DNA of 64,000 nt from Phycisphaerales bacterium. Lineage in GTDB: Bacteria; Planctomycetota; Phycisphaerae; Phycisphaerales; UBA1924. Each line of letters starts with the position of its first letter. The first letter of the stretch is position 1. Positions 22,569 through 46,085 of the stretch are shown here, one piece after another. The notes under the pieces were generated by a model, which worked only from the letters and a program-made list of their open reading frames with translations, searched no databases and had not been told where the DNA came from. The position numbers were made by a program, and so were the translations under genes. Location: assembly GCA_029260495.1 (NCBI GenBank), contig JAJDDD010000013.1, positions 1 to 64,000 on the forward strand. Direction: 5' to 3'.

Positions 22569-24020
22569 TTACACCGTGTGATGCGCGGGGTCTTCGGCGG
22601 ATTCACGCGGGCGGGGGGGTTGCTCTGCGGCGCGTTGTTTTTCGGGGCGGTGCTTGCCGTTGGTTGTTTTGCGTGAAACACTGAGTCTTTTGGCGAGCTT
22701 GCCGCCGGCGGCTGCTGCTTGTTCCTCGATAATTTTTCGTCGGGCGATTTTGACAGCCGTCACGCCGATATAGCTGGCGAGCACGAGAGCGATCGCGTAG
22801 GCGACGCGAGCGCGACCGAGTGAGAGCAGGACGCCGAGCCCAACGAAAGCGAACGTCATGCCGTAGAGGGAAAAGACGGCGCCTTTGACTCCGAGTGAGC
22901 GCTTAAGCATGTGATGCAGATGCTGATCGTCAGCGTCACCGATGCTCTTGCGCTGCATTTTTCTGCGGACGATCGCGAGTGTCGTGTCAATGATGGGAAC
23001 GGAGTAGATCAACAAGCCGGCGATCACAAACTGTGTTTTTCCGGTGTCGCCGAGCATGAGGATGATGACGATGGCCATGTATCCGAGCAGCATGGAGCCG
23101 CAATCGCCGAGAAAAATGGAGGCGGGATTGAAGTTGTGCGGCAGAAAGCCGAGGCAGGCGCCAAGAAGAGCGAGGCAGAGGACGATGCGGGCGGAGTCGA
23201 GCGGACCATCGAAGCTGGAAGCCATCCCCAGCGCCAGGAGGAGTAGGCCTCCGGCGACAATCGCGGTGACGCCGGAGCACAGGCCATCCAGCCCGTCGAT
23301 GAGATTGCTGGCGTTGCACGAACCGAGAATAAAGACCGCGATGATGGCGGTGCCGACCCAATAAATGATGTTAATAGGGATGACGATTGTTGGGTCGGCG
23401 ACGCCGATGGTGTCGAGGAGCCAGATGGGCGGGTTGATATCAATGGTGTAAAAAAGGCTTTCGTTGCCGATCAGTCTTCCGAGCGGTCGCAGGACGCCCG
23501 ATGCGACTTTAACACCAACATCGCTGATTGCGAGCGCGGCGGCGGCGATGAGTTGCATCGAGATCTTGATGCGAGGTGAAACCCCAACGACATCATCAAG
23601 AAGACCGGCGAGCATGATGAGCATCATGCCAAGCAGAACGGAGAAGGGAACGGGACTCTGTTGAACTTCATGTGCGCCAGTGAGTGGAAACGTCGTATAG
23701 GCTGCGTAGCTGTAGCCGACGCCTGCCAGAAGCCCGAGGAACACCGCGACGCCGCCAAGGTAAGCGACGGGGATGCGATGGACCTTTCGCGGATCAGAAG
23801 GCTGATCGATGATCCCGTTGGCTAGCGCTAAACGGCGCATGAAAGGCGTGGCGATCATCGTGACGAGGAATGCAGCGACAAAGACACCCATGTAGCCATG
23901 AAAGAGCTCAAGGCGCGAGAAAATAGTCAGCGTCCCGGGGGCGGAATCGATGATATCGGGCAGGGATCCAGGCGCGATGGGCGCTTCACCGACCAGGGGA
24001 TTGAGCGGCGTGGTCACCAC
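22569..24020 (-). CDS. WecA/TagO-like undecaprenyl-phosphate sugar-1-phosphate transferase
   Basis: A polytopic membrane enzyme of the MraY/WecA superfamily, 483 residues with about ten or eleven helices. Catalytic signatures are present: LAGLLDDVVGVSP (Asp-Asp), NASNLIDGLDGL, FLGDCGSM, and the HLHHMLKR histidine motif. These enzymes transfer a sugar-1-phosphate, usually GlcNAc-1-P, to undecaprenyl phosphate and so begin a cell-surface polysaccharide. The hydrophilic tail of about 60 residues is longer than usual and rich in Arg, Lys and Pro. It is the last gene of the minus-strand exopolysaccharide locus. Confidence 0.88.
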   Translation of the reverse strand: MVTTPLNPLVGEAPIAPGSLPDIIDSAPGTLTIFSRLELFHGYMGVFVAAFLVTMIATPFMRRLALANGIIDQPSDPRKVHRIPVAYLGGVAVFLGLLAGVGYSYAAYTTFPLTGAHEVQQSPVPFSVLLGMMLIMLAGLLDDVVGVSPRIKISMQLIAAAALAISDVGVKVASGVLRPLGRLIGNESLFYTIDINPPIWLLDTIGVADPTIVIPINIIYWVGTAIIAVFILGSCNASNLIDGLDGLCSGVTAIVAGGLLLLALGMASSFDGPLDSARIVLCLALLGACLGFLPHNFNPASIFLGDCGSMLLGYMAIVIILMLGDTGKTQFVIAGLLIYSVPIIDTTLAIVRRKMQRKSIGDADDQHLHHMLKRSLGVKGAVFSLYGMTFAFVGLGVLLSLGRARVAYAIALVLASYIGVTAVKIARRKIIEEQAAAAGGKLAKRLSVSRKTTNGKHRPEKQRAAEQPPRPRESAEDPAHHTV

Positions 24021-24227: not shown

Positions 24228-26609
24228 TCAGTCGTTTGATTTTTCGTAATCCTGATCTTCGACATCGTCCGCATCAGTGGAAAGAGCGCTGATGTCGCCA
24301 TTGCGTTGTGGCGCAGCGTCGGCGTCTTCCGAATCCTCAAAGAGATCGCCGCGACGGCCCTTGCGTTTCTTGCGGCGAGGCTCTCGCTCTTCAGAAAAGA
24401 CGCCGTTGTTGTTGAGATAGTCATGGGTCGCGCGGAAGTTGCGCCGGAAGTAGCCGCCGGCAGCGCCGCGGACACCGTTGATGATTACGCCGAGGAACTC
24501 AGTGTTGGTTTCGTCAATCTGGTTGCGCATACGGGCGACGAGGCCGCGCTTCTCAGCCATGGCGCGAACAACGAGGACTGTAGCGTCGCAATGTCCTGCG
24601 AGCATAATCGCATCGCTGGACACAACGGCGGGGGCGACATCGAGCAGGACGATGTCGTATTTTTCGCGTGCCTCGTTAAGGAGGTTGGCCATTGCGGAAG
24701 TGGTGAGGCGCTCGTACGTTCTGCTGTCAGTGGCGCCGGCGGGAAGAACATCAACGCCCATCGAAGACGTTGCGATCGCGTCGTCCAGCGTCATGGATCC
24801 AGAGATCGCTTCGCTTAGGCCGGGTGTTTCGGGAACTTCAAGCACGTCATGAAGACGCGGCCGGCGGAGATTGGCGTCAATCAGTAGAACTTTGCGATCA
24901 CAGGCGGCGCAGCTAAGCGCGAAGTTGATGATGGTGCTCGTGGCGCCAGATTCGGGCATTCCGCCGATTATCAGAAGAATTTTATGTCCGCCGCGCCCGA
25001 GCTTTCGGAATATCTCGCTGCGCATCTGCCTGACGCATTCAGCGATGACGCCAGTGGGTCGATCGCGGACGGCGGTTTCGATTGCCTCGGGGCGAGAGGG
25101 GTCTTCTGAGACATTGGGGATAAGCCCGAGCACACGGGTGCGTGGGATCATGGTGATATCTGAGGGGCCGCGCACGCGCTGCTCCAGCGCCTCGCGCAGG
25201 ACTATCACCGAGACAACAGAGAAGACTGTGAGCAGGAAAACAATCGGAATTAGCACATGTGGTTGAGGAAAGGCGGGCTCGCTTGGAATTTCACCGTCAG
25301 CGAGAATGCGAACGCGACTTGCGGTGCTGAGCTCATTTCTCGCCTGAACTTCCGCGATTCGGTTGCTCAGTTCCTGAGCTTCGTCGGCCAGACGTTTGGC
25401 GTCTTCTTCAAGTGTGAGGTGCTGTTGACGCATACGATTGATATTGGTGAGGCTGTCGCGAGCTTCTTCCAGACTTTGTGTTGTTTCACGTTCGACGGCG
25501 TCGAGCTGTCGAATCTGACTGCGAAGAAGCTCCATCGACTGGTCAAATTTCTCGTTTTGGAGCCTTTCTTGCTGCGCGTCGAGTTGCTGCTTTGTGACAC
25601 GGAGGTTCCGTTCGATTTGCTTAACCGAGCGATGATTCACCCCGAGGCTCTCAAGCGCGGAGCGTTTCGCGAGCTCCAGGCTGTTGAGTTGATTCTTCAG
25701 ATCAAGAACTGTTGAATCCTGCTCAACAGCGAGCTTGATGTCTTCGGGGACGATTGGGCCGCCATCTGCAGCTTTGAACTCTTTGTATTCCTCAAATCGC
25801 TCTCGAAGAAGTTGAAGGTTGTATTGGGTGGAAACCAGCGAGGGAAGTAGTTGATCAATTTCGTTAACAGATACAGAGTAGCGCTCGTCGAGCGACTCGA
25901 TCCCAGCCTCACCGAAGAGTCGCTCCATGCGCTCTTCCATCCGGCGTCGCCCCTCCATCGCCGTGTTCAGTCGGCGATTCAAGCGTTCGAGAACTTCCTG
26001 CGAGTCGATTTGATTGGAGTCGCGCAGATGTTCGAGGAAGACGAGCTTGATTGCATTAACGAGCGTAGCGGCGTCATTCTTATCTGTCGTGCGGACGCGC
26101 AACTGAACAATGTTGGTGTCGGGAAGGTTGGCCGCATTGGCGATCTCAGAAAGCTCGATTGAGGCCTCGATGACGTCCGGACGCCCGCCAACCATGAACT
26201 GCTTGAGCCATTTGGTGTCCTGACGGACGGGGCGCGAGGCGACGGCCTGCCTTAGGATGGCGTCTGAGGTCATAACCTCAATTTGCGTTCCCATAAAGCG
26301 TTCAATTTCCTCGTCGCCGCCCTTGCCGACACTGGTCTGAGCATTGTCCACCTCATCGATAGCGCTCAGGAATTCAAACCAGACTTTGCCATCGTAGAGC
26401 GGGTAGAGCTTGAGTAAGGCAAAATAGAGCACAACACCAAGAACGAGGCCGACAACGCCGGATCCGATGAACCAGGGCCAGTATTGACAAAAGATCTTGC
26501 GCGGATCAATGGTGACTGCAGTGGGCGCCTGCTGCGTTGGCCTCGCGGGCGCAGGGCGCGATCGCCCTCCGGCGGGCTTCTGCGTCGTTGTGGGGGTCGT
26601 GGGCGTCAT
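24228..26609 (-). CDS. Wzc-like chain-length determinant protein with degenerate kinase domain
   Basis: 793 residues from the ATG at 26609 (AAGGA upstream). A Pro/Thr-rich cytoplasmic start precedes a membrane helix (about 45-68), a long periplasmic coiled-coil region (about 75-450), a second helix around 460-480, and a C-terminal BY-kinase-like domain. The kinase fold is recognisable: GGMPESGATSTIINFALS, VLLIDANLRRPRLHD, YDIVLLDVAPAVVSSDA. However, the Walker A Lys is replaced (GATST instead of GKST) and Walker A' reads DAN instead of DAD. No Tyr-rich C-terminal cluster is seen; the tail is basic and acidic. It probably regulates polymer length and export, perhaps without kinase activity. 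Confidence 0.85.
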   Translation of the reverse strand: MTPTTPTTTQKPAGGRSRPAPARPTQQAPTAVTIDPRKIFCQYWPWFIGSGVVGLVLGVVLYFALLKLYPLYDGKVWFEFLSAIDEVDNAQTSVGKGGDEEIERFMGTQIEVMTSDAILRQAVASRPVRQDTKWLKQFMVGGRPDVIEASIELSEIANAANLPDTNIVQLRVRTTDKNDAATLVNAIKLVFLEHLRDSNQIDSQEVLERLNRRLNTAMEGRRRMEERMERLFGEAGIESLDERYSVSVNEIDQLLPSLVSTQYNLQLLRERFEEYKEFKAADGGPIVPEDIKLAVEQDSTVLDLKNQLNSLELAKRSALESLGVNHRSVKQIERNLRVTKQQLDAQQERLQNEKFDQSMELLRSQIRQLDAVERETTQSLEEARDSLTNINRMRQQHLTLEEDAKRLADEAQELSNRIAEVQARNELSTASRVRILADGEIPSEPAFPQPHVLIPIVFLLTVFSVVSVIVLREALEQRVRGPSDITMIPRTRVLGLIPNVSEDPSRPEAIETAVRDRPTGVIAECVRQMRSEIFRKLGRGGHKILLIIGGMPESGATSTIINFALSCAACDRKVLLIDANLRRPRLHDVLEVPETPGLSEAISGSMTLDDAIATSSMGVDVLPAGATDSRTYERLTTSAMANLLNEAREKYDIVLLDVAPAVVSSDAIMLAGHCDATVLVVRAMAEKRGLVARMRNQIDETNTEFLGVIINGVRGAAGGYFRRNFRATHDYLNNNGVFSEEREPRRKKRKGRRGDLFEDSEDADAAPQRNGDISALSTDADDVEDQDYEKSND

Positions 26610-26711: not shown

Positions 26712-29700
26712 TTATTCGGCCTGATTGAGCTTCGCCATCAGGTCATCAAGATCCTTCTGATATTCCACTCGGAAGTTGGGGTTGTCCTTGAGCTTCTTCC
26801 TGACTTCATCGGCGGATTTTCGGGCCTCTGCGAACATGTCGCCGGCAGTGACGTTTCGCCCTTCTGTTCGTAATTGGGCGGCATAACGTTCGAGGGCCTG
26901 GCCGCGGTGCAAGTAGGCGGGGATCAGTTCGCGTGCGAAGGTCGAGTTTTCGACAGCCTTCAGCAAAACGCCCTGGGACTGCTCGTATCGTCCGAGAAGG
27001 AAATAGACCCAGCCGAGCGTGTCGAGCGCAATCGGGTTCGATGGCTCAAGCTCGACCGCCTTCTCCGCCGCCGTCAGCGCGCCTTGTGGATCATCCAGAT
27101 GTTTTGCCCGTGTATAAGCGAGGTTGTTGTTGAACTCGAGATCATTCGGAGCGATCGCCAGGCCCTTGGCAAATGCATCGGCGGCGAGTGAATAGTCCTG
27201 CATCTCCGGCATGTAATAAATCGTGCCCATGACGCGATAAAGGTCCGCAAGCTCCTGATCGTTGGCTTCTGATTCAACTGCCTTGAGTCTTTCAATTAAG
27301 TCCGAGTGAACCGAGAGCTGCGGCAACTGAAGGCGGGCGAGTTCAATCACATATGCAACCCGCACTTTCTCTGGCGGCGTCAGGCCTTGCATGAAAATAG
27401 CGATTGGCGCGGTGGATTGCCCTGAGAACAGTCGCTTGGTCTGATCAAACCAGTTGTTGATCTTTCCTCGTGTATCGCACATCGCGAGAGCCTCGACCGC
27501 GGCGGCGTGGGCATCCTCTTCGTCTCCGGTCGCCCGGAGCGCTCGAGCTTTGATAATCAACAAGTGCGGATCGGTGTTCACCTGCTCCTGATCGATATCA
27601 TCAATCACGCGCCGCGCTTCATTGGCGTTGCGCGTTGAGTTATCAATGAGATCCAGATCAAGCAACGTGCGCGCCAGGCGATAGGAATATTCCGGACGAG
27701 CCTCCACAGCGACCGCCTGGCGAAATAACTCTGTAGCCCGAGTAAAATCGTTGCGAGCCTGACCAAGGCGGTTGGGATCCCTCTCAGCTTCCGATGCGGC
27801 GCGGACGAATATGTCGCCGGCAAACATGAGCCAGTACGATTTTCCAGGGCGATCCTTGACAACCTGATTGGCGGCAAGTTTGGCATCGTCTAGCCGGCGC
27901 ATGACAACCAACTGCCTGAGCAGAAGAATACGGAGGTCGTCCGATTGGAGGTTGGCTTGCACACCACCGCGTAGGGCGGAGAGCGCATCATTGGGGCGCC
28001 CGCGACTATTGAACAGGTCGGCCTGCATGCGGTAGGCCGAGACAGCTGAGGGAACCAGCCGCACCACCTGCTGAAGGTCCGCGATGACGTCACGGAACAA
28101 CTCTGGCGTTTCGAGATTGAACTCGGCCCGCTTCAGAAACGGACGATGATCAGATGGCGCCATCTCAACAGCTTGATCAAGAAGTTTGCTTGCTGTCAGG
28201 CGATCACCCTGTCCCTTTGCAATTTCCGCTTGAAGCAGAACGACGCGCAGGTCGTCGGCAAAGCTGGGACCGAGCAGATTGATCGTCTCGGAAGCGGCGC
28301 TGTACTGTGACTCGCGCACCAACGCTTCGATGCGCCGGAGTGTGAAGTACTTTTCTTCTGTGTCAGCCCCCGCATCGATGATCTTCTCATAGACACTTGC
28401 CGCTTCGGCGTACCGGCCGTGGCCGAACAGATACTCCCCGCGCAGGCGGTCGGCCTCCATTTCCTCACTTTGATACTTGGCTGCCTGCTCGTATGCAGCG
28501 AGCCCCTGTTCTTCCAAATCATGGTCAAGAAGATAGGAAGCGAGCGCTGAGTAGGGCTTGGTGTCCATTTCGTCCGCTTTGATCGTGCCGATGTGCTCGC
28601 GAATGACATCGCGCCCCGCCAACACGCCCTCTTTACCTTGAACAGCATGCCACTCCGCATCCAGAACAACCGCATCCAGATTCTGAGGATCCTGGGCTCG
28701 GACTTCATCGAGCAGTCTTCTGGCGTTATCGCGCTGTTCCTGGGCCATGTAGATGCGTGTTAGCGCCAACGCATTGGTGATGTTCGTCGGATTGCTCGCG
28801 TAAATCTCTTCGCGGAGGCCAATGGCTGACGTCGCGTCGCCCACAGCCTCTTCGAGGACCAGCCACATTTCCTGGATTACATCGTTGGTCGGATGGAACT
28901 CGCGAGCTCGCCGCACAGTCGTCAGCGCAAGCGGCAACCGCTGCAGGCGCATGAGCGACTGGATATAAATTTGCGTAATCGCGGGATCTTCAGGTTGATA
29001 CTTGTATGCGAGCTCAAGCGACTTGACAGCGTTTTCAACACGACCAAGGGTCAGTTGAACCTGACCAAGCAATCGCCAGCCGAGTGGTGAATAAGGCAAC
29101 TTCTCGACAGCGCGTTCGAGCGTGGCGGCCGCCTCTTCCGCGTTTCCTTGCGCAATCTCAAGACGAGCCTGGAACATCAAACCATCTGCCTGATCGACGT
29201 TCAGCCTTGCCGCCCGCTGAGCGATAAGGGTGGCGTCTTCCCATCGTTCTTGCTGGATCGCATCGAGAAAGATCATGTCGATCACTGCAGGATTATCCGG
29301 TGCGATCTTCTCAGCCTCCACACGAGCCTGAAACGCTTCGTCATCCATCTTGAATCGTTTGTAAACGATGTGCTTGCGAACGAGCTTGATTGCGGGTGGA
29401 TCGTCGGATTCCTCGATCAAACGAATCACTGTTCCGGCTTTGTCGTCGCTGGCTGCAACTCGCAGCTGCTGTTGATACTCCCGGAACCTTTTCACATTGG
29501 GGAATCGCTCGACCGCGTCATCGGCTATCGCCATGAGCGAAGACATTTCGCCATGCGCCGCTTCGATGCTCAGAAGACGGGCCATAAGTCGCGAGTCTTT
29601 CGGGTGCTCCTTGAGCATTGCGTTCAGTTCGCGTCGCGCCAGGTCAGGATCCTGATCCGCTTTTTCGGAGAGAGCGATCATCTGGAGAAGGAGCGGATCG

Positions 29701-31397
29701 GTGATTTCTTCGATATCGCTGTCCTGATTTGCATAGGAATTGCGAATTGCAAGCAGGCGATCATCATTGACTCGAAGCTTGAGGGCCCTGTCAATCATCG
29801 CGATTGCCTGAGTTCGGTCGTGCAGTTTCAAATGCACGCGAGCGGCGTCAATCATCGCCGGAATGTTCACACTCTGTAGTGAGAGGATGCGCTGATATTG
29901 CACGAGTGCGGCGCCGTTGCGGTTGGTCTCTTCGAGTGAGTGTCCAAGAAGGCGCAGCGCCTCGAGCTTGAGGCTCTCGGTGTCCGCAGTGCGTTCATCA
30001 AGCTCCGTAAGCCTTGCGATCGCAACAGGATAATTTTCTTCCGCCAGAGCCAACTTTGAATCGAGCAACAACGCGACGCGCGAATCCTCACCCTGCGTCA
30101 TGCGCTGCGCAATGGCGTCACGCTTGATTTTGGCTTGTTCTAGAGCTGCCGTCGCGGTCGCGACGTTGCCCTCCGCTTTTTGTTGGTCGTGGATGGAGAG
30201 CCAACTCTGAGCCTGTTGGTAAATTGCGTCCTCGCGCAGACTGCGCAGAATGAGTCCGTCAAGGCTTACGGGTAGATCAGGCATATCGACGATTTTTTGG
30301 AAGACGTCAATTGCTTCTTCGTACCGGCCGAGTTCCGCAAGCAGGGCGCCGCGATGTCGGACGAGCTGCGCATTGTTAGGGGATTGCTTGAGCATGCGAT
30401 CTGTCAGGCGCAGCGTGACGTCGGAGACCTGTTCGGGCCGTAGGAGGACGAGGATCCGGCGAAGCCTGCCGAGCAAATCGATGTCGATGTCGTCGGGGTC
30501 CGCCTTCTCGAGCGCTTCAATGATGACGGCTTCAGATCCTTTGAGTTTGTTGACAGCCGCCAGGCGTTCGGGGATTTCCGTTTCGCTGCTGATCGCCTGA
30601 TCGAGACGAACTTCCAGATTTGTAATGAGAATTGCCGGATTATTGGGGTGCTTGACAAGGAGCCTGTCAATCTCCTCCTGCACGCGATCGAGCGCCTCGT
30701 GTGTCTCCTGAGTACGCCGAGTGTTGCGAAGCGAGGCCCACTCAAGAACATGCCAGCGAACAACGCCGATGGCGGACTCCATATCGTCGGGGTCAGCAGC
30801 GGCGGCGGCTTCAAGATCCTCAAGCGCATCGCGCCGATTCGCACCTTCCTCCGGAAGCATGCTGATGAGCCAAAGTCTCGCCAAACCTCGATATCGGCGA
30901 AGTGATTCTCGTTCGTCTTCCGACTCAGGCGCATCAACGCGTTCGTACGCTTCGGTCACAATGTCGACAAAGCGCGTCCACGAGGGCGGACCGGCGCCGG
31001 CGAGCTTGTTCTGGCGGTACACCGCGTCGAGATAGGCGCGCTGGGGCTCAACGTCATATTCTTGAAGCTGGGCGATCTGCCCGAGAATTTGCAGGTAATA
31101 GTTGTTGTACGCCTTCTTGTATTCAACTTCAGTTTCAGGCGTGCTCTTGGTGACTGCATCCAGCCATTTTTCAAGCCAGATAATATTCGTGCGCTCGTGG
31201 TTCACAGCGCGGGCGTAATCTTCGCCGGCGTCTTGAAACTCGCCCGCTTCGTAGTGGGCGTCGCCCATGCGTATGTAGTCCGCGCCCGACTTCGTGAGCA
31301 CGGTGTACCCAAGCCAGGCAACGACTGCGAAACCCGCCACAAGCACTGTGGCGAGCAGAACAACGAACTTGACATTGACGCGAGAAGCCATGGTCAT
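26712..31397 (-). CDS. Giant membrane-anchored TPR protein of the exosortase/EPS locus
   Basis: 1561 residues with one N-terminal membrane helix (FVVLLATVLVAGFAVVAWLG, about 11-31), then TPR-like helical repeats almost to the end. Recognisable units include YYEAGEF-like and YMRMGDAHYEAGEFQDAGED, RHRGALLAELGRYEEAIDVF, LGRVENAVKSLELAYKYQPE, and the last pair LAIAPNDLEFNNNLAYTRAK and LDTLGWVYFLLGRYEQSQGV. It resembles the PrsT-type TPR proteins of PEP-CTERM/exosortase loci but has no lipobox. Its start may be the second ATG at 31391. It probably forms a periplasmic scaffold for polysaccharide export, as TPR proteins do in alginate and cellulose systems. Confidence 0.8.
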   Translation of the reverse strand: MTMASRVNVKFVVLLATVLVAGFAVVAWLGYTVLTKSGADYIRMGDAHYEAGEFQDAGEDYARAVNHERTNIIWLEKWLDAVTKSTPETEVEYKKAYNNYYLQILGQIAQLQEYDVEPQRAYLDAVYRQNKLAGAGPPSWTRFVDIVTEAYERVDAPESEDERESLRRYRGLARLWLISMLPEEGANRRDALEDLEAAAAADPDDMESAIGVVRWHVLEWASLRNTRRTQETHEALDRVQEEIDRLLVKHPNNPAILITNLEVRLDQAISSETEIPERLAAVNKLKGSEAVIIEALEKADPDDIDIDLLGRLRRILVLLRPEQVSDVTLRLTDRMLKQSPNNAQLVRHRGALLAELGRYEEAIDVFQKIVDMPDLPVSLDGLILRSLREDAIYQQAQSWLSIHDQQKAEGNVATATAALEQAKIKRDAIAQRMTQGEDSRVALLLDSKLALAEENYPVAIARLTELDERTADTESLKLEALRLLGHSLEETNRNGAALVQYQRILSLQSVNIPAMIDAARVHLKLHDRTQAIAMIDRALKLRVNDDRLLAIRNSYANQDSDIEEITDPLLLQMIALSEKADQDPDLARRELNAMLKEHPKDSRLMARLLSIEAAHGEMSSLMAIADDAVERFPNVKRFREYQQQLRVAASDDKAGTVIRLIEESDDPPAIKLVRKHIVYKRFKMDDEAFQARVEAEKIAPDNPAVIDMIFLDAIQQERWEDATLIAQRAARLNVDQADGLMFQARLEIAQGNAEEAAATLERAVEKLPYSPLGWRLLGQVQLTLGRVENAVKSLELAYKYQPEDPAITQIYIQSLMRLQRLPLALTTVRRAREFHPTNDVIQEMWLVLEEAVGDATSAIGLREEIYASNPTNITNALALTRIYMAQEQRDNARRLLDEVRAQDPQNLDAVVLDAEWHAVQGKEGVLAGRDVIREHIGTIKADEMDTKPYSALASYLLDHDLEEQGLAAYEQAAKYQSEEMEADRLRGEYLFGHGRYAEAASVYEKIIDAGADTEEKYFTLRRIEALVRESQYSAASETINLLGPSFADDLRVVLLQAEIAKGQGDRLTASKLLDQAVEMAPSDHRPFLKRAEFNLETPELFRDVIADLQQVVRLVPSAVSAYRMQADLFNSRGRPNDALSALRGGVQANLQSDDLRILLLRQLVVMRRLDDAKLAANQVVKDRPGKSYWLMFAGDIFVRAASEAERDPNRLGQARNDFTRATELFRQAVAVEARPEYSYRLARTLLDLDLIDNSTRNANEARRVIDDIDQEQVNTDPHLLIIKARALRATGDEEDAHAAAVEALAMCDTRGKINNWFDQTKRLFSGQSTAPIAIFMQGLTPPEKVRVAYVIELARLQLPQLSVHSDLIERLKAVESEANDQELADLYRVMGTIYYMPEMQDYSLAADAFAKGLAIAPNDLEFNNNLAYTRAKHLDDPQGALTAAEKAVELEPSNPIALDTLGWVYFLLGRYEQSQGVLLKAVENSTFARELIPAYLHRGQALERYAAQLRTEGRNVTAGDMFAEARKSADEVRKKLKDNPNFRVEYQKDLDDLMAKLNQAE

Positions 31398-31424: not shown

Positions 31425-32378
31425 TCAGATGATTGCGTTCAGATCCAACTTTCGATAACGATGCACATCGACGTCGGCCCCGTGCCATACGGGCTCCGAC
31501 GCGGCGCGTGAACCATCCGTGTCAGCAGCGCCCCCACCCTCCGGATACCGCCCCTCCTCAACCTCCACCCAGGGCGGCACGCGAAGCATAATCTCTGGGA
31601 GCATTTCGTTCAGGAAATCCGCCGCCAAATCCGCCAGTTCCTCAGCCGAATCCACCACCGGGCTCATGACCTGAACCTTCGCATAGTACGCGTAGGTGTC
31701 CTTCAGGTTGAACGCGAGAAAACGAACATCGTCCGCCGTCGGCACGGAGCCGCCGTTGGCGATGAAGAAATAGCCTGCCAGGAGGCTGTTCCCTTCCAGA
31801 TCCTCAAATCGCGTCACGTTCATGCTTAGCTTGTGGATGTTACGAAAAAGGTGAATGCGCTGGCCCTCTCGCTCGCCCGAGAGCCGCGCCCGGCGAATCT
31901 CACCGTGCGCCGCTGCATCGACTGAGGGATCAATGGGGAAGCGCTCAAGGTCCAGGGGAACATTGACGACTCGGCTCGGACCGTCGATCTGCATCCCGCC
32001 GCTTCCGACAAAGCATCGCTCCGGAACATGAGGAACCGTGTCGATCATTCCAGTGTAGTACGCAGTATGAAGCTGGAGCGTGCGCGGTCTTGTTCCGGCT
32101 GCCGGCTCCTTCTCCTGATACCAGCGGCTCAGATAGTTCGACGTGCCCAGTGATTCGAGCACCTCAGCCGTCAGCGGCTCCTCGTCCGGGCCAAGCTGCT
32201 TCCAGTTCGGGAGATCCCGCGGAAGGGTGTGGAATTTTGCGGAGTTGGGCGCTTCGATGGGGAGTTTGTCGAGGTGGGCCTCCATCGCCCACACGACGAC
32301 ACGATGTCCGATTGCCCCGCCGAATAAAAGCACGAGGGCAACCAAAAATCCCGGACTAGTGAGACGACGCCAGTTCAC
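31425..32378 (-). CDS. EpsI-like exosortase-associated protein
   Basis: 317 residues with an N-terminal membrane anchor (FLVALVLLFGGAIGHRVVVW) and a periplasmic domain of the EpsI family found next to exosortases. The conserved Cys-containing segment reads VPHVPERCFVGSGGMQ, matching the family's H-P-x-x-C-(x)2-G-G pattern. It starts with GTG at 32378, overlapping the exosortase stop by 4 bases (GTGA), so translation is coupled. In related systems EpsI is fused or adjacent to the exosortase and needed for EPS production; its biochemical role is not defined. The acidic, Gly/Ala-rich insert before the C-terminus looks lineage-specific. Confidence 0.82.
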   Translation of the reverse strand: MNWRRLTSPGFLVALVLLFGGAIGHRVVVWAMEAHLDKLPIEAPNSAKFHTLPRDLPNWKQLGPDEEPLTAEVLESLGTSNYLSRWYQEKEPAAGTRPRTLQLHTAYYTGMIDTVPHVPERCFVGSGGMQIDGPSRVVNVPLDLERFPIDPSVDAAAHGEIRRARLSGEREGQRIHLFRNIHKLSMNVTRFEDLEGNSLLAGYFFIANGGSVPTADDVRFLAFNLKDTYAYYAKVQVMSPVVDSAEELADLAADFLNEMLPEIMLRVPPWVEVEEGRYPEGGGAADTDGSRAASEPVWHGADVDVHRYRKLDLNAII

Positions 32379-33385
32379 GTGTGAACCTCTGGAGGAGTCG
32401 AGTGCGATGTTTGGCTCGTTTGGGCGAGCTTCTTCTTCAGCTGCACCTTTCCTTCAGGCGAAGACGCTGGCGATTCCTCATGCACCATCTTGTTGAGCGC
32501 CCACACAACGCTCATAAAGAGGAGAAAAGCAGGGAGGAGCCAGAGCACGCCAATGAACATATGAGCTTCGCCCTTTGAGAGTTCAGCGTTGTAGACGCTC
32601 GCGATGCCCAGCGTGGTGACCCGAAGCACATTTACGAAAATTGCGATGGGCCCCACCAGCATCAGCAGCGCGATGCGCTGCCACCAGTGCTTGCATGAGA
32701 GAAACGCAACCGCAGCTCCCAGTGCGAAGAACGCCACAACCATCCGCATGCCTGAGCACGCGTCAGCGACATTCAGCGGAAACTCGCCGCGATCAGTGAT
32801 GATGGTGAGCGTATTGCCCAAACGCTCCGTCGTGAAGCCGATGATATTGAGCAGCAGGTGTGAACCCCACGACGCCCATTCCTGCAGCCTCGCGGTCACC
32901 TTGAGCATCACCATCTCAGCGATCGTCACACCGAATCCGAGGTAGGCGATCGGAAAAGTGACAAGCGGCAGCATCCGCGGTCCAAGCAGCAGCAGGACGA
33001 TTCCGAAAATCGTCAGCACCAGCGAAAAACCCTGAAACATATGGTTGGAATAGCCAACGGTGAAGAAGTAATAGCACGCCACGCCCATCGCCAAAGGGAG
33101 CGCGCCAGGCCAAAAGATTTCGGGCCTGAGCTTTTCGATTCGCTCCCGGCTGCGCCAGAGCACATAGCCGCTGATGAGCGGAACAATGTAGGCGTGTGAC
33201 CAATCCTCGTTCCCGAAACTGTGCTTGTTTTGTTTAAGAAACCAGTTATAGAAAAGAGCGATAAGCCCGATGGCGAGCCCGGCAATCATCACCCGCGTGG
33301 AAGGAGCGCCGAGCAACTCGCCCACGGTCTTGCCGCGATCGCGTAAAGCAGTCGGCGCGATGGTGGCAGAAGCGTGGCTCATCAT
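32375..33385 (-). CDS. Exosortase/archaeosortase-family transpeptidase
   Basis: A polytopic membrane protein of about 336 residues with the exosortase catalytic triad. Cys lies in NVADACSGMRMVV, Arg in FVNVLRVTTLGIA, and His in KGEAHMFIGVLW, each at a membrane-helix edge as in the family. The N-terminal region carries the SYEDWSHAY-like NEDWSHAYIVPLIS motif. Exosortases are thought to cut and anchor proteins with PEP-CTERM-like C-terminal signals and are usually encoded in exopolysaccharide loci, as here. The ATG at 33385 is preferred over a TTG nine bases upstream; another ATG follows directly. No clear PEP-CTERM substrate is encoded in this window. Confidence 0.88.
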   Translation of the reverse strand: MMSHASATIAPTALRDRGKTVGELLGAPSTRVMIAGLAIGLIALFYNWFLKQNKHSFGNEDWSHAYIVPLISGYVLWRSRERIEKLRPEIFWPGALPLAMGVACYYFFTVGYSNHMFQGFSLVLTIFGIVLLLLGPRMLPLVTFPIAYLGFGVTIAEMVMLKVTARLQEWASWGSHLLLNIIGFTTERLGNTLTIITDRGEFPLNVADACSGMRMVVAFFALGAAVAFLSCKHWWQRIALLMLVGPIAIFVNVLRVTTLGIASVYNAELSKGEAHMFIGVLWLLPAFLLFMSVVWALNKMVHEESPASSPEGKVQLKKKLAQTSQTSHSTPPEVHT

Positions 33386-33536
33386 GGGTTCCAATACACC
33401 AGACCGGGCAGGTGGCTCTCAAGGTCCACACAATCCATTCGTTCTCTCCAGCGACGGCCCTGCCTGCTCGACACAGGCGAACCGACTCCTCCGACCTGCA
33501 TCCCGACTCGCCTCGATCCGGCCGGCGACAAAATGA

Positions 33537-33690: not shown

Positions 33691-35277
33691 TCAGAAGCCG
33701 CGATTCGACGGTGGGGCGCCGAACACATCATTGCCAAAGTTCCTGTCCAGCAGGAAGCCGAAGCCGTAGCTCATGCGAAAACCATTACGAATGACGGCGA
33801 GCGGGGTGGCGAAGAAGTTCGTGCCCACGTTAATGACATCATCGGGCTTGAGGAAGATATCAGGCTGGGTGCCCTCGAAGATGGCCCGAGCATTGAGCCG
33901 GATCGTCGCCTGTCGGTCGTCCCCGACCATCCGAGTGAGGTCAAGCCTCTCCGGGATCGCGATCTGACTGAGGCCTCCAGCCGAGATAATGGCCTTGGTG
34001 AGCGTCAGACGCCCATTTTGCGGAAGGGAATAGACCCCCGCCCGCGCGATGCCGGGACCGCCGACGTACACCAGGCCGGAGATAGGCGGCGGGATGCGGA
34101 TTACATCGCCGGGACGGATCACAATGTTGAACTCAGCCTTCCCCTGAAGCAGGGGGGCTGTCGGGATCTCAATAATGCGCTGCGTGACGAGGTCCGATGG
34201 CTGCAGCCCCTCCAGAGCGTCAGCCCCTTCGGGTAGGGAGTCAACTCCCGCATTCGTCCGCCTGGCGACCCGCACCCATTCTCCATTCAGGAACATCCAC
34301 CGGCCCGCCGCCTGAACCTGCTGTCCTTCTTCAAGGCCGAGCGGCGCGACAGGGTTCGCAGCAGGCTGAGAGTCACCTTCGATCAGTTGAATCACCGCTT
34401 CCGGATCCTGAGGCTGATCCTGATCCACCTGAGCGAGCAGGATGGAGGAGTGAGCGTCATTTTGGTCAGCAAAGAAGCCAGGCGATGGTTCTCCATCCTC
34501 TTCCGGACGGGTGAGCCCCTCGATGAGTTGTTCAAGACCGATGCCGGGCTGCTCGGCATCTCCGTCGGGAGTATTGATTGGCATCACCGGCTTGTCAGCA
34601 GGCGTGACGCCCATGCCGCGCTCGGCAGCATCGGTGAGAGGCACCTGACGGATCACATAGACCTTGCGGATGATCGGCGACAGGCCGCCCGCTTCGGTCA
34701 GTGCTTCCAGCAGGCGATAATCCGGCTGAGGAATGAAATACCGCCCGACGCCGGATATGGCGCCGAACACGGAGAAAGTCTGCTCGCGCTGAGCTGTAAT
34801 TGTGACTGAGACGAGAGCATCCTCAATGAGCCCGGCCTCTCGCAGCGCGATTCGGACAGCCTCACGAATTTCGTCTGCCGTCAGCCCGAGAATATTGAGC
34901 CGGCCAATCTGGGGCACATCGACAAAGCCGCGAGAATCAACATTCCGGGCAAGCTGCGCCGGCGTGCCCGTCTCGTAAAGGTCAAAGATCTCCATCAGCA
35001 CCTGATCGCCCGCACCAACTTCGTAATCGGTCACCTCGGGGATCAGATCGTCAGCCTGGATCGAACTGGTCTCGACGAAATCCCCGGTGTCGCGCTCGAT
35101 GACTTCAATGCGATCAAGGATCGGAACCGCTGTCGGCGTATGCTCCCAGCGACCGACAACGCTTGGGTCGAACATCCAGCCATCAACTTCGCAGCCGGTG
35201 AAAAGTGTTGTAGACGCCAGCAGGCCGGCGGTGAGGGCGCTTGCGCTGATGAAGCGCGTGAACATTGTCCGATTCAT
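33691..35277 (-). CDS. Wza-like polysaccharide export lipoprotein (SLBB domains)
   Basis: 528 residues from the ATG at 35277. This start gives a signal peptide ending in a lipobox (LLASTTLFTGC); the open frame continues 68 codons upstream without a signal. The polysaccharide-export domain begins at about residue 80 (YEVGAGDQVLMEIFDLYETG) and is followed by SLBB-type segments (TFSVFGAISGVGRYFIPQPD; VYVGGPGIARAGVYSLPQNG). An acidic, low-complexity insert of about 130 residues separates them. The C-terminus runs to a region close to the outer-membrane helix of Wza-type proteins but ends FGAPPSNRGF. Such proteins form the outer-membrane channel for capsule or EPS export. It is the first gene of the minus-strand EPS locus. 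Confidence 0.85.
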   Translation of the reverse strand: MNRTMFTRFISASALTAGLLASTTLFTGCEVDGWMFDPSVVGRWEHTPTAVPILDRIEVIERDTGDFVETSSIQADDLIPEVTDYEVGAGDQVLMEIFDLYETGTPAQLARNVDSRGFVDVPQIGRLNILGLTADEIREAVRIALREAGLIEDALVSVTITAQREQTFSVFGAISGVGRYFIPQPDYRLLEALTEAGGLSPIIRKVYVIRQVPLTDAAERGMGVTPADKPVMPINTPDGDAEQPGIGLEQLIEGLTRPEEDGEPSPGFFADQNDAHSSILLAQVDQDQPQDPEAVIQLIEGDSQPAANPVAPLGLEEGQQVQAAGRWMFLNGEWVRVARRTNAGVDSLPEGADALEGLQPSDLVTQRIIEIPTAPLLQGKAEFNIVIRPGDVIRIPPPISGLVYVGGPGIARAGVYSLPQNGRLTLTKAIISAGGLSQIAIPERLDLTRMVGDDRQATIRLNARAIFEGTQPDIFLKPDDVINVGTNFFATPLAVIRNGFRMSYGFGFLLDRNFGNDVFGAPPSNRGF

Positions 35278-35747
35278 TCGCCCGCTGTTGTCGATCACCG
35301 CTGACTCCTTCGCGACCCACTTCTCAACCCCGGTGTCTGACCCCGTTTTTACCTTCCGGGACACACATGAAGCACAGCCAGCGTCGTGCAGCAAGTCCTT
35401 CCCTGGGAAGGGTCGCCACGGTATCACCCGGCTTGTCACTGTCAAACAACCCATCGACGCAACGGGCGGGGCGCCCGCCAAAGAACGTCAACGTCTCCGA
35501 ACCATCGACCGAAACCCCCCATCCGGTTCACCCGAGAGCCTTCTTGGGACCGCAAAAAACCGGCTTCTTCACTGATAGCCTTTGACGGACCTTCTGGTTC
35601 GCTCGGGACGACGACTTGGTAGGCGATACAGAGTGATGCAGATCGTGGCTCACTTGCTGCAGATTTTCGCCGATTCCTGATAGATGAGGGAATGGCCAGC
35701 GTTCCCGTCGCCTTCGCCCCTCAGAGCCTGGCTACACTCAACTGCTC
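35278..35747. other. Divergent intergenic region upstream of the EPS locus and lipA
   Basis: About 470 bases that must hold the promoters of the EPS locus (minus) and lipA (plus). Two short perfect hairpins are visible: TCCTTCC-CT-GGGAAGG-type around 35397-35411 and GGCGGG-GCG-CCCGCC around 35464-35478. Neither is followed by a T tract. I found no match by eye to a c-di-GMP riboswitch or another known leader. The frame that extends the Wza-like gene upstream to 35481 lacks a signal peptide and is probably untranslated. Confidence 0.4.
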
Positions 35748-39815: not shown

Positions 39816-39959
39816 CTATTCTTCATCATCAAATAGTACGCGCGACGCAGGCGTCTCGAGGTCATCAAACTGACCCGATCTCGCTGCCCAGATGAATGCG
39901 ATCACCGCTGCTGCAGCAATGACAAGGGCGATCGGCAGCACAATATACAGAGTTGACAT
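39816..39959 (-). CDS. ccoS: cbb3-type cytochrome oxidase assembly protein CcoS
   Basis: A 47-residue single-helix protein. The sequence starts [20 protein letters not shown], continues with [13 protein letters not shown], and ends in an acidic LFDDEE tail, all typical of CcoS. The family motif W-A-x-x-(S/N)-G-Q-F-D-D-L is complete. Its ATG overlaps the stop of ccoI as TGATG (39961-39957). CcoS is needed to load copper and heme into the cbb3 oxidase together with CcoI. It is the last gene of the cco operon. Confidence 0.9.
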
Positions 39960-42421
39960 CACTTCTCCCCGAACGTGCGGCATCGATAGGAAAGCGTCAC
40001 CACGCTGAATGAACTGAGCGGCATGAGAATCGCCGCAATCAATGGGTTAATAATGCCAGCGATCGCCATCGCCGCGCTGATGACATTGTAAAGAATCGAG
40101 ACGGTGAAGTTCCGCCGGATGACGCCGACTGTCCGATTCGATCCTTCAATCAGTTCAACCAGCGGCGAGAGGCCGGGGTTCGAAAGGTACACATCCGCCG
40201 CCGCGAGACTCGCCTCGGCCCCCCCTTGCACCGCGACGCCCACAGTCGCCGCCGCCAGCGCCGCAGCGTCATTCACTCCATCGCCCACCATCACCACCGT
40301 GCCAGCGGCAGCGTGTGTGCCCACCAACGCGAGCTTATCTTCCGGCGACATCGCGCCAAAGCATGAATGCTCATCCAGACCCACCTCACGCGCTACCGCG
40401 CTCACAACCTGTGGATGGTCTCCCGAGGCGATCAATACACTCCATCCGAAACGCCGAAGCTGATCTATCGCAGACGCGGTGTCTGTGCGCACAGGATCGC
40501 CAAACGCTGCGACAGCGACAATGCGCCCCTCCATCGCGATCAGCACCGGTGTTTGCGCCGAGCTCGCCGCCTCCGCGATCGCCTCCGCAACCCAGCTTGG
40601 CTCAGTCGTCGCAATCATGCGCACAAATGCCGGAGATCCAACGCGAACGCACTGCCCATCAACGAGACCCTCAACACCCGAACCAACAGCATGTTTCACC
40701 TCTGTCGCCCGCAGCCCGGTGTCGTCGAACTCCAGGCAAAACGCCCGGGCGATCGGATGCGCGCTCTCCGATTCAAGCGCTCGAGCGAGTGGTTTGGCGG
40801 ACTCTTCGCCGCGCCACCAGGCGATCTGCTGCATTCCCGCGGTGATGGTCCCGGTCTTATCAAGGATGACAACACCCGGGCGATGCAGCGATTCCAACGC
40901 ATCTCCGCCTTTAATGAGGATTCCCCGCCGAGCAGCCCGTCCGATCGCGACGACCACTGCAAGCGGCGTCGCAATCCCAAGCGCACAAGGACATGTCACG
41001 ATAAGCAGCGCCGAAACATTATTCACCGCCTGACCCCGATCCAGGAAGAGCCACAGCGCCGCGGTCATCGCTGCCAGCGCCAGCACCGCCGCCACAAAAA
41101 AGCCAGCCAGCCGATCCGCCATGCGCACAATTGGCGCTCGCTCGTTGGCGCACCGCTCCATCAGCGCCATAAGCCGCCCAACGCGCGTGTCTTGTCCTGC
41201 TGCCTCAGCGCAAATCGTGAGCGCTGCTTCGACATTGATCGCTCCCGCTTCAACGCGATCGCCAACCCCAACAGAAATCGGGGCCGACTCACCAGTGAGG
41301 AGCGCACGATTGATCGTGGATTCGCCCTGGATCACGGCGCCGTCAATAGGAATCGTCTCTCCCGCGAGCGCCTCGATCGTGCATCCCGGGGTGATCGATT
41401 CAATAGGTTTCTCTTGCGCCACGCCATCTTCAATCACCCTCGCCGTCGCCGGAGTCAGCGCGAAAAGCGCTTCGACCGCATCCGCTGCCCGCCGGCGCTG
41501 GCGCTGTTGAATCCACCGCCCGATGAGAAGCAAAAAGACAATCGCGGTCACCGACTCAAAATAAACATCGCCCACCCCGCGAATAGTGTTCGCAGCCCCC
41601 CAAATCGCGCCCACGCCCAACCCCAGCGCCACCGGAAGGTCCATGTGCAGCGAGCCTGTGCGCAGGGCTGCGATCGCACCTCGAAAAAACACCCGGCCCG
41701 GCCACGCAAGGCATAAGAATGTCAACACCAAACTCACCCATCGAAAGAGCGCAGCATGTTCATCTGCGATCCCGTGCAGCATCCCGCCGTAGAGCGCGAA
41801 GGCGATCGCCATCACATTCCCCGCGATCGCGCCGGCGACGGCGATGCGCACCATCATCCGCCGATCTTCACGTCGATGGATGTCGCGCTGCCGCACGCCC
41901 GATGCAGGATGCGCGGGATAGCCAAGTGAGCCGAGCTTGGATGCAATCGCTGACAACCGCACCACGCGATCATCCCAGCGAACATGCACAATGCCCCGTC
42001 GCATCTCAAGCCGGGTTTCGAGCACGCCATCGAGAATTGTTGGCAGCTTTTCGATGAGCCAGACGCACGCGGGGCAGTGAACGCCTTCGAGCTGCAAGTC
42101 AACGGCGCACATTCCGCCTGCATCTTCGCGGATATAAAGCGACCGAAACGCCGGGCTGTCGAGTGCTTCATACCGACGCCGCCCCGAGGCGGCCCGTTGC
42201 GGTTTGTCAGCGAAACGATCCCGCAGCTTGTAGTAGCCATCCAGCCCTGATGCGTGGATCACCTCGTAGACCGTTCGGCATCCATTGCAGCAAAACTGTT
42301 GTTCCGCGTCCGCATCTACCAGTCCTGAGGGAACAGGAAGCGAGCAATGTGCGCACATGACGGCGGCAGCGCCCGACCTCGTGCGCACCGCGTCGGTTGG
42401 TTGGATCGCTTCACTCAACAT
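39959..42421 (-). CDS. ccoI: Copper-transporting P1B ATPase for cbb3 oxidase (CcoI/FixI)
   Basis: 820 residues from the ATG at 42421, which overlaps the upstream SafE-like gene by 11 bases. It has an N-terminal Cys cluster ([10 protein letters not shown], then [11 protein letters not shown]), an HMA-like metal-binding domain with HCPAC in [16 protein letters not shown], and eight membrane helices. The copper motif CPCALG lies in the sixth helix ([14 protein letters not shown]). [27 protein letters not shown] and [10 protein letters not shown] complete the P-type core. It delivers copper to the periplasmic side for assembly of the CcoN copper B centre. Position next to ccoG, ccoH and ccoS supports the CcoI assignment over a general copper exporter. 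Confidence 0.93.
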
Positions 42422-43178
42422 CGCAACAGGGGAGAGTCGCCTGATCGATGCGCTCAACGCGGTCGATCGCCGCCGCAGGCTGAGCGATCGCCGGATCCAT
42501 GCGCATGGAGGCGATGCTCGCGCGCGAGAACACAGTGAACAGGCCGACGGCAATTAATAGGATTCCAGCGATCTGAGGCGCGCGGCTGCGAAGCGGGCCG
42601 AGGAGTTTCTGGGCGCCAACACCGACGGCGATGAGCGCGGGGAGTGTGCCGGCCCAGAATGCGATCATGGCGCCGGCGCCGAACAAGGGGTCAGCCGTCC
42701 CGGCGGCGACGATCGCGAAGGCATACAACCACCCACAGGGGAGCAGGGTGGTGAGCAGACCGATGACGCCGGCGCGCACGAAGGGTGTGCGTCGGGCGGC
42801 GAAGCGGTTGCCGCGACTGACGATTGCGCGCACGCCGGGGGGGAGTGGGGCGCGGGCGATGCGCACACCGGAAGCGCGCAGGAGCGCGATGGCGCCGAAG
42901 CCGATCATCATTGCGCCGGCGAGGGCGGCGGCAGCGCGCTGGAGGCCGAGCAGTTGACCACCGAGATCGAGGGCGGCGCCGAGCAGGCCTGCGACAGCGC
43001 CGAGCAGTGTGTAGGTGATGAGTCGTCCGCCGTTGTAGGCGACGTGGAGACGTGTGGCTTGGTGATTGTTTGCGGGATCGCCTCCGACTGCAAGAGCGAC
43101 GAAGGCGCCGCACATGCCGGCGCAGTGCATGCTGCCCATGAGGCTGGCGAAGAAGACAGCGCCTGCGAGAGCGATCAT
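42411..43178 (-). CDS. SafE/TauE-like membrane protein of the cco cluster
   Basis: 255 residues with six or seven helices. The signature Cys motifs of this branch are present: SMHCAGMCGAFVAL near the start and LLTTLLPCGWLYAF in the middle. Relatives are annotated as sulfite exporter TauE/SafE or UreH-domain proteins and often sit in ccoGHIS clusters or next to metal ATPases, where they are thought to move metal ions. The start overlaps the ccoH stop by 4 bases, and its 3' end overlaps the likely ccoI start. It probably assists copper handling during oxidase assembly (inference from context). Confidence 0.82.
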   Translation of the reverse strand: MIALAGAVFFASLMGSMHCAGMCGAFVALAVGGDPANNHQATRLHVAYNGGRLITYTLLGAVAGLLGAALDLGGQLLGLQRAAAALAGAMMIGFGAIALLRASGVRIARAPLPPGVRAIVSRGNRFAARRTPFVRAGVIGLLTTLLPCGWLYAFAIVAAGTADPLFGAGAMIAFWAGTLPALIAVGVGAQKLLGPLRSRAPQIAGILLIAVGLFTVFSRASIASMRMDPAIAQPAAAIDRVERIDQATLPCCDVE

Positions 43179-43672
43179 CGGTTGTTCTCCGCGGGCCAGA
43201 CGTGGAGGCGCTCGCCGGTGGTGAAGAGGTCAGAGCCACGGCGAATCTCAAAGTCGAGCTGCCACCACCCGGGACGACGCAACCGGGCTTCGCCGTGGTA
43301 AGCGCCGTCTTCGGCGCGGGAAAGGGTGACCACCTGGCGGTCCGCAGCACGGGCGTTGTGGTAGAGGGTGAGTGTGACGAGATCAGCTTCGAGTGGGACG
43401 CCGTCAGTGTCTTCGATGCGCACGATGAGGGAAGCTATGGAGAGTGTTCCCTTTGGCACGAGTTTGTTCACTTCGATGCGCCAGCCGAGCTGTTTGTTGT
43501 GCGCAAGTTGCGCACGATGCTCATCCCAGTGGACGCCCTTCTCGTAGTAATCGTCTTCAACAGCAAAGCCGGGGTCAGTGTGGGCGAAGTAGATGAGGGC
43601 TGCGGTCGCGATGATGTGCATTGAGAAGAGGCCGAGCACGAGCGCGATCCAGAAAGCGCCTTTGTTTTTCAT
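43175..43672 (-). CDS. ccoH: FixH/CcoH family protein
   Basis: 165 residues with one N-terminal membrane helix (FWIALVLGLFSMHIIATAAL) and a periplasmic beta-rich domain. The family segment DDYYEKGVHWDEHRAQLAHN follows the helix. The C-terminus has the usual RRPGWWQLDFEI pattern. FixH/CcoH is needed for stable assembly of cbb3 oxidase and interacts with CcoI or the CcoN complex. It overlaps the ccoG stop and the SafE-like start by 4 bases each, showing tight coupling. Confidence 0.88.
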   Translation of the reverse strand: MKNKGAFWIALVLGLFSMHIIATAALIYFAHTDPGFAVEDDYYEKGVHWDEHRAQLAHNKQLGWRIEVNKLVPKGTLSIASLIVRIEDTDGVPLEADLVTLTLYHNARAADRQVVTLSRAEDGAYHGEARLRRPGWWQLDFEIRRGSDLFTTGERLHVWPAENNR

Positions 43673-45192: not shown

Positions 45193-45243
45193 TCGTCCTC
45201 CGGTGGCGCCTGTGTATAGATGCGTCAAAGATTAGGGGCGCGG

Positions 45244-45858: not shown

Positions 45859-46085
45859 GAGAACGTCTCTCCCTTCTTTTTGAGCGCGGCGTGTTGTGAG
45901 TTGTTTGCAGCTTCAGCGGCGGGGTCATCATCGAGGGCGAGTTGTGCGAATTTTTGCGCATCACTGCTTCGAAGTTTGAGCAGCACGCGCAACGAGATGA
46001 GCAGGAAGACGCCGAGAAAGAGAATCATGGCGATTTGTGGATAGATAGAGAGTTCGGCGCCGCTCATGATTTCGGTGAGGCTCAT
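45855..46085 (-). CDS. ccoQ: cbb3 oxidase small subunit CcoQ
   Basis: A 76-residue protein with one membrane helix (IAMILFLGVFLLISLRVLL) and a charged cytoplasmic tail (LRSSDAQKFAQLALDDDP), the layout of CcoQ/FixQ. It overlaps both ccoNO upstream and ccoP downstream by 4 bases. The tail is somewhat longer than usual. CcoQ stabilises the association of CcoP with the core complex. Confidence 0.85.
   Translation of the reverse strand: MSLTEIMSGAELSIYPQIAMILFLGVFLLISLRVLLKLRSSDAQKFAQLALDDDPAAEAANNSQHAALKKKGETFS

Follow-up and report, generated by a model that had tools for sequence, protein, structure and literature searches.

The window analysed here is a 64,000-nucleotide stretch of a Phycisphaerales genome (GTDB lineage Bacteria; Planctomycetota; Phycisphaerae; Phycisphaerales; UBA1924), covering positions 1 to 64,000 of contig JAJDDD010000013.1 in NCBI GenBank assembly GCA_029260495.1. 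On its minus strand it carries the gene for a 793-amino-acid protein resembling Wzc of E. coli, a polysaccharide co-polymerase (PCP) of type 2a whose C-terminal domain resembles a bacterial tyrosine kinase (BY-kinase) and has no catalytic lysine. The plus-strand frame across the same positions is broken by stops, and the coding open reading frame (ORF) is that of the minus strand. The gene and its features are as follows, in positions of the window and residues of the protein.

24228–26609, minus strand: Wzc-like PCP-2a protein, 793 amino acids, with a BY-kinase-like domain without the catalytic Lys (ORF, profile matches, AlphaFold, Foldseek)
26412–26468, minus strand: first transmembrane helix, about residues 48–66 (hydropathy; model helix 44–68)
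25185–25262, minus strand: second transmembrane helix, about residues 450–475 (hydropathy; model helix 450–475)
25020–25040, minus strand: E-x2-R-x2-R motif, residues 524–530, described as the octamer interface in known BY-kinases (PMC3795738)
24933–24965, minus strand: degenerate Walker A loop, residues 549–559, with Ala556 at 24942–24944 (alignment, motif reading, codons)
24858–24878, minus strand: A' motif DANLRRP, residues 578–584, with Asn580 at 24870–24872 (alignment, motif reading, codons)
24639–24659, minus strand: Walker B strand YDIVLLD, residues 651–657, with Asp657 kept (Asp in all 136 lysine-less rows of the wide comparison given below)
24405–24455, minus strand: C-terminal segment GGY...Y, residues 719–735, with Tyr720 and Tyr731 and no tyrosine cluster

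The PCP-2a architecture is present in one chain, with two transmembrane helices flanking a large helical periplasmic domain, followed by a C-terminal kinase fold. Hydropathy peaks start at residues 48 and 452, with a weaker third peak at 653 that lies within the kinase core. The co-polymerase half was identified by this topology, by weak matches to TIGR03017 and TIGR03007, and by fold, and the kinase-like domain matches known structures of this domain from BceF, Etk, Wzc, VpsO and CapB and passes the cut-off of NCBIfam TIGR01007 (polysaccharide biosynthesis tyrosine autokinase; 112.6 bits, cut-off 108.05).

The Walker A loop reads G-M-P-E-S-G-A-T-S-T, placing Ala556 (codon GCC) at the BY-kinase lysine position, and the A' motif reads D-A-N-L-R-R-P, placing Asn580 (codon AAT) at the position of the second aspartate. 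In the HMMER alignment the equivalents in Wzc are residue 540 for Ala556, 541 for Thr557, D564 for Asn580 and D642 for Asp657. An earlier, sequence-only reading of this gene had claimed that the Walker A lysine and the A' aspartate were lost and that the Walker B aspartate remained. The first and last of these claims hold, with Ala556 at Wzc position 540 and Asp657 in place, and the second holds in part, as the second A' aspartate is replaced by Asn580 and the first (Asp578) is still present. The tail of the protein contains Tyr720, Tyr731 and one tyrosine near the end. Among the features of active BY-kinases, the Walker A lysine, the A' D-x-D-x-R sequence and the tyrosine cluster are thus missing and the Walker B aspartate is present, and the protein corresponds to a BY pseudokinase, that is, a BY-kinase fold without catalytic residues or a tyrosine-rich tail, here with the Walker B aspartate retained.

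When the protein was searched in 61 genomes (its own and 60 relatives), all had a match and 59, the own genome included, had an orthologue (one, L043, as a partial ORF), while the best matches in the other two (G048 and G060) were other superfamily proteins only. In all 59 orthologues the Walker A lysine is replaced (by Ala, Gly, Ser, Thr, Cys or Val) and the A' sequence is Asp-x-Asn (DxN), with the first A' aspartate lost as well in L062 (G-G-N). Since both substitutions are common to 59 of 59 orthologues, a sequencing error at these codons, which the sequence-only reading had named as a way to be wrong, or a local oddity is ruled out. The TIGR01007 cut-off is passed by 44 of the 59 lysine-less orthologues, so that the tyrosine autokinase label which this curated model puts on such genes in databases is probably wrong. 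A scan of named genomes gave 384 loci, of which the best 80 were read, nearly all of them labelled Phycisphaerales, Phycisphaeraceae, Phycisphaerae, Planctomycetaceae or Planctomycetota. As the scan pattern required D-x-N-x-R-R-P, these loci are informative for the lysine position only and not for the asparagine. They yielded 64 new rows, the remaining loci duplicating rows from the other genomes, and after exclusion of one ParA-like ORF the lysine was absent in 63 of 63 distinct newly seen PCP rows. One record (L176) titled Leptolyngbya sp. PLA1, a cyanobacterium, carries a Phycisphaerae-type gene and looks misnamed.

Beyond the window's order, a profile built from 31 orthologues matched 120 of 120 genomes of the class (E ≤ 1e-30). 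In the other orders of the class, motifs were read in 62 of 101 genomes and were Lys with DxN (41), Arg with DxN (12), another residue with DxN (8) and Lys with Asp-x-Asp (DxD; 1). In a sample of the phylum, 39 of 99 genomes matched at E ≤ 1e-60, 33 of these outside the class, and all 24 loci read outside the class had Lys with DxD. The wide comparison assembled from these sources held 230 distinct domain rows, 190 with DxN and 40 with DxD. All 40 DxD rows have the lysine (37 scoring >100 bits and three weak), while the DxN rows are divided among Lys (n = 42), Arg (n = 12) and a small residue (n = 136), the replacements in the 136 lysine-less rows being Ala 77, Thr 26, Ser 17, Gly 6, Val 5, Cys 3 and Asn 2.

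The order of the losses was read from two trees, both computed with the motif and tail columns omitted and both rooted, or read, with the DxD rows outside. A FastTree tree was based on 225 full-length rows and has long branches that meet among the DxD rows; an IQ-TREE tree was based on the kinase-like domain of 88 of these, drawn at random and supplemented by named rows, with five long or divergent DxD rows left out. Parsimony counts, which are minima, gave two changes between Asp and Asn and four changes between Lys or Arg and any other residue in both trees, and across the IQ-TREE bootstraps the count for the lysine-less label ranged from 4 to 4. The DxN rows form one group (FastTree support 99, with a single DxD row, L222, within it; IQ-TREE support 98/94), and the lysine-less rows fall into four groups, namely the window's order (126 rows, support 100), a group of six rows with Gly-Gly-Gly before the lysine position, L184 and L100. 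By parsimony, the change from Asp to Asn would have occurred once, before the class diversified, with the lysine lost later and several times, in the DxN background only. The row L222 (G084 contig 5; DADFRRP) is nested deep among the DxN rows beside L217 (98/86, IQ-TREE) and so reads as a reversal from Asn to Asp or as a sequence error. One of the 42 rows with Lys and DxN is an additional PCP gene, on a 7.8 kb contig of a genome from the window's family (L067; G008 contig 79); as it groups with a row from another order in the IQ-TREE tree, it may be contamination or a transfer.

Tail tyrosines and an acidic residue close to the lysine follow these classes. Median tyrosine counts in the tail (residue 711 onward) were 6 in DxD rows (n = 37), 4 in Lys with DxN rows (n = 42), 4 in Arg with DxN rows (n = 12) and 2 in lysine-less rows (n = 136), and the acidic residue two positions before the lysine occurred in 34 of 37, 37 of 42, 12 of 12 and 1 of 136 rows, respectively. 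Within the 136 lysine-less rows, the Mg-site residues Thr/Ser557 and Asp657 are both invariant, as are Tyr720 and Tyr731 of the tail. Other pocket residues are nearly so (Asp/Glu578, n = 135; Arg/Lys583, n = 135; Asn711, n = 132), and the octamer motif is largely kept (Glu524, n = 134; Arg527, n = 136; Arg530, n = 120). Mean pairwise identity over 70 rows was 0.51 for the kinase-like domain compared to 0.25 for the periplasmic part. A replacement lysine was sought column by column across three row groups, and no newly invariant lysine was found. Arg583, Arg688 and Arg693 are candidate stand-ins, but the latter two are frequent in lysine-bearing rows as well. Arginine occupies the Walker A lysine position in L226, L095, L103, L239, L252 and others, where a swap of pocket charge with position 583 is possible.

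An AlphaFold2 model built on a 70-row alignment (mean predicted local distance difference test score 86; predicted template modelling score [pTM] 0.55) is mostly above 90 in the kinase-like domain and shows a pair of membrane helices, extended helices in the periplasmic part and a last helix spanning residues 720–734. The 28 best Foldseek matches of this model were full-length Wzc chains, mostly of the K540M mutant (probability 1.00), and with a second aligner the predicted kinase-like domain superposed on the octameric Wzc domain 3la6 at 1.8 Å over 248 residues and on CapAB K55M at 2.0 Å over 251 residues. Judged from the alignment ends, which makes the placing approximate, Tyr731 of the model would fall near Wzc 715–717; in Wzc K540M, Tyr717 is described as occupying the active site and Tyr715 as lying in a pocket (PMC8285477).

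With both substitutions fixed throughout the order as sampled, a reduced tyrosine cluster, and the fold and ring motif kept, a pseudokinase with a structural role, one of two outcomes offered by the sequence-only reading, is well supported by inference; the other outcome, a different nucleotide chemistry, gained no support. The 793-amino-acid protein is accordingly best read, with a probability of about 0.72, as a fused PCP-2a pseudokinase whose cytoplasmic BY-kinase-like domain would carry out no phosphate transfer and would act as a phosphorylation-independent ring or scaffold. In Wzc, mutation of Lys540 is reported to abolish phosphorylation, and the K540M protein forms homogeneous octamers that were solved with adenosine diphosphate (ADP) and Mg (PMC8285477). 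Simulations described in PMC8517177 have the Walker A lysine bridging to the Walker B aspartate in the open state, and the Walker B aspartate contacting the Walker A threonine in the closed state, which the octamer stabilises. As the lysine is lost and the threonine, the Walker B aspartate, the E-x2-R-x2-R motif and the tail tyrosines are retained, the domain should favour the ring, as Wzc K540M does. The protein would be held in the inner membrane by its two helices, with its long helical domain in the periplasm, and would work with the outer-membrane polysaccharide export (OPX) protein and the glycosyltransferase of an exosortase-linked polysaccharide operon. Given the OPX, glycosyltransferase and exosortase genes beside it, the scaffold may set or couple chain growth and export, with ring opening controlled by something other than phosphorylation; the family would in this way have given up the features required for catalysis and the open state but not those required for the ring and the Mg site. 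Loss of nucleotide binding does not appear to be implied, as the Mg-site threonine and aspartate are kept, together with an asparagine that contacts ADP in BceF, and Lys-to-Met forms of Wzc and CapB were solved with ADP-Mg.

A more specific form of this pseudokinase reading, offered tentatively and with the odds somewhat against it, is that the exosortase-linked Wzc, formerly a tyrosine autokinase, became a ring locked in the closed state or gated there by nucleotide occupancy, which would amount to a phosphorylation-free Wzc cycle. In this reading the aspartate that receives the tyrosine gave way to asparagine a single time, in the ancestor of the class, and the lysine that holds the open state was then discarded four times, while the Mg site, a phosphate-facing arginine, the ring motif and one docking tyrosine would have been kept.

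Several observations weigh against the pseudokinase scaffold or its details. The AlphaFold model is of one chain and not of a ring, with a pTM of 0.55, and full-length Wzc is a loose match (residues 34–735, Z 34.1, root-mean-square deviation 10.5 Å over 464 residues). Neither Pfam Wzz (PF02706) nor GNVR (PF13807) matched the protein at E ≤ 0.001, while a canonical-looking kinase of the same genome matches both. At least four tyrosines within 20 tail residues are kept in 14 of the 136 lysine-less rows. Ser or Thr persists in 43 of these rows at the residue after the Walker B aspartate, which belongs to the network of the open state, and occurs in 14 at its closed-state partner, position 548; these counts defy the simple prediction and so weaken the detailed switch argument, not the pseudokinase reading. 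Finally, the current model, as set out in PMC12004946, holds a phosphorylation cycle to be essential for PCP-2 function, so that on this model a fixed ring by itself should not function in E. coli.

The rival closest to the pseudokinase scaffold is a refinement of it, in which the pocket binds ADP or adenosine triphosphate with Mg and occupancy, rather than phosphate transfer, gates the ring; this is a realistic possibility at slightly less than even odds. It would account for the exclusive use of small residues at the lysine position in the 136 lysine-less rows, although loop geometry alone could explain these, and for the retention of the Mg-site Thr and Asp and of an Asn that lies within 4 Å of ADP in BceF. 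Both CapB K55M, which is described as co-purifying with ADP-Mg when none was added (PMC3795738), and Wzc K540M, solved with ADP-Mg (PMC8285477), are in keeping with it. Position 583 is Arg/Lys in 135 of 136 lysine-less rows and Gln in 7 of 12 Arg-bearing rows (compared to 1 of 42 Lys with DxN rows and 1 of 136 lysine-less rows), a pattern that would fit a need for a single strong positive charge, and the equivalent BceF Arg590 is proposed to stabilise the phosphate of the nucleotide, although it faces the site in only one of two chains (PMC8394532). This suggests a charge balance between positions 556 and 583, but the charge-swap rows are kin to each other, so that the count is no test, and the acidic residue two before the lysine, kept in only 1 of 136 rows, has gone as well.

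It is unlikely that the protein is an inactive partner in trans, with a canonical kinase of the same genome phosphorylating its tail or mixing into its ring. The genome does encode a canonical-looking BY-kinase (G000 contig 20, GKT and DADLRKP), as the sequence-only reading had proposed to look for, along with two low-molecular-weight phosphatase matches, and the invariance of Tyr720 and Tyr731 in lysine-less rows would suit a phosphorylated tail. That kinase, however, is encoded elsewhere, in a polysaccharide locus of its own among Wzy-like, Wzx-like, OPX and uridine diphosphate-sugar genes, and in 26 of 60 relatives the pseudokinase is the sole TIGR01007 match, no second one having been found at E ≤ 1e-12 (weaker matches uncounted). 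Of these 26 genomes, 20 are at least 90% complete and six <90%; G036 is a single contig, and G005, G011 and G051 have weak matches to the 793-amino-acid protein in open frames of 327–340 residues. An active partner is therefore not generally detectable, and as a general rule it is ruled out.

In WNK kinases another residue stands in for the catalytic lysine, and a kinase still active through such unusual chemistry could draw on Arg583, Arg688 and Arg693, which are near-invariant in lysine-less rows. This is very unlikely here, with reduced tail tyrosines, no newly invariant lysine, and an asparagine in 136 of 136 rows at the A' position whose aspartate in Wzc (D564) is described as a marker for the approach of a neighbour's tyrosine (PMC11986026). 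Decay into a functionless domain, which the four parsimony losses of lysine following one loss of aspartate might bring to mind, is scarcely credible, as conservation is higher in the kinase-like domain than in the periplasmic part and reading frames and most operon neighbours are retained.

BY pseudokinases as such are already known, both as separate proteins (EcpK, HfsB) and in fused forms including PssP2 (described in PMC12004946 and PMC4182512). With Wzc of E. coli the 793-amino-acid protein shares the two transmembrane helices, the helical periplasmic domain, the fused kinase fold and the E-x2-R-x2-R motif; it differs in having Ala and Asn for Lys540 and Asp564, in having no tyrosine cluster, and in a periplasmic part that superposes loosely. 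EcpK/EpsV of Myxococcus xanthus and HfsB/HfsA of Caulobacter are, as described in PMC12004946, likewise kinase-dead BY-kinase folds serving a co-polymerase, but each pair is two separate proteins rather than one chain, and EcpK is described there as having none of the Walker motifs, whereas most of the nucleotide pocket is kept here. PssP2 of Rhizobium leguminosarum, reported to act in chain-length determination, combines a co-polymerase and an inactive kinase domain in one chain; going by its description it stands apart, being from another phylum and without the Walker A, A', B and Y-cluster motifs (PMC4182512). Further fused pseudokinase co-polymerases are SMc01795, BCETI_6000729, Mlr8439 and VV1_2305 (from Cuthbertson et al., as cited in PMC12004946), which by description have a fused inactive kinase like the present protein and come from other phyla. 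XrtA/PEP-CTERM exopolysaccharide loci have similar neighbours (exosortase, EpsI-like, PrsT-like tetratricopeptide repeat [TPR] and OPX genes), with separate NCBIfam models for chain length (TIGR03007) and tyrosine autokinase (TIGR03018), the two parts that are fused here; the protein scores far below both cut-offs (31.7 of 278.85 bits and 105.3 of 230.65 bits, respectively).

No Phycisphaerae or planctomycete BY pseudokinase was described in the titles or abstracts of open-licence PubMed Central papers among the matches listed. What looks new is a fused form that has become fixed throughout the sampled order and still has surviving intermediates, and the comparison of sequences would add a class-wide forerunner with one change, an order of losses, an exosortase operon and a pocket that appears reshaped rather than erased. 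How a co-polymerase works without a phosphorylation cycle is a question raised by EcpK and HfsB, and here the same operon gene occurs as apparent natural intermediates, with Lys and DxN, with Arg and DxN, or with neither basic residue. Their occurrence in living lineages makes it possible to test in what order, and at what cost, kinase activity would have been lost.

The PCP gene lies in a run of genes all on the minus strand, in the order OPX, exosortase, EpsI, a giant PrsT-like TPR protein, PCP and a family 4 glycosyltransferase.

33691–35481, minus strand: OPX (Wza-like) protein (PF02563)
32375–33394, minus strand: exosortase (PF09721, 2.6e-46; TIGR02602 over its cut-off)
31425–32378, minus strand: EpsI/DUF3485 protein (PF11984)
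26712–31397, minus strand: PrsT-like giant TPR protein, 1561 amino acids (TIGR02917, 5.5e-44, below its cut-off)
22569–24020, minus strand: family 4 glycosyltransferase, WecA/MraY-like (PF00953, 1.5e-30)

Across the 80 named loci, some of which end early, the partners were counted by presence and not by adjacency (glycosyltransferase, n = 76; TPR, n = 76; exosortase, n = 66; OPX, n = 63; EpsI, n = 44). In 20 chosen loci of other orders (16–20 kb each), TPR was present in 19, exosortase in 19, EpsI in 17, OPX in 16 and the glycosyltransferase in none. The order OPX-exosortase-EpsI-TPR-PCP thus looks inherited across the class, and the glycosyltransferase (76 of 80 compared to 0 of 20) belongs to the window's order. 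PEP-CTERM signals were few in the own genome: three passed the cut-off, the best of them at E 5.7e-4. The genome also has a third Wzc-like protein, on contig 9, with GKT but DADLVGH; it lies together with an exosortase-like gene and a TPR protein (positions 5973–15560 of L071, G000 contig 9, 444000–462000), in what is possibly a second exosortase-linked polysaccharide locus.

Elsewhere in the window, two large proteins (52005–54050 and 59905–62655) have dockerin type I matches near the C-terminus, one of them with sortilin/BNR matches in addition. An oxidase cluster at 39959–48361 includes COX1 and FixO matches in one ORF (46082–48361), with FixG, FixH, a DsbD-like protein and a heavy-metal-type E1-E2 ATPase as neighbours.

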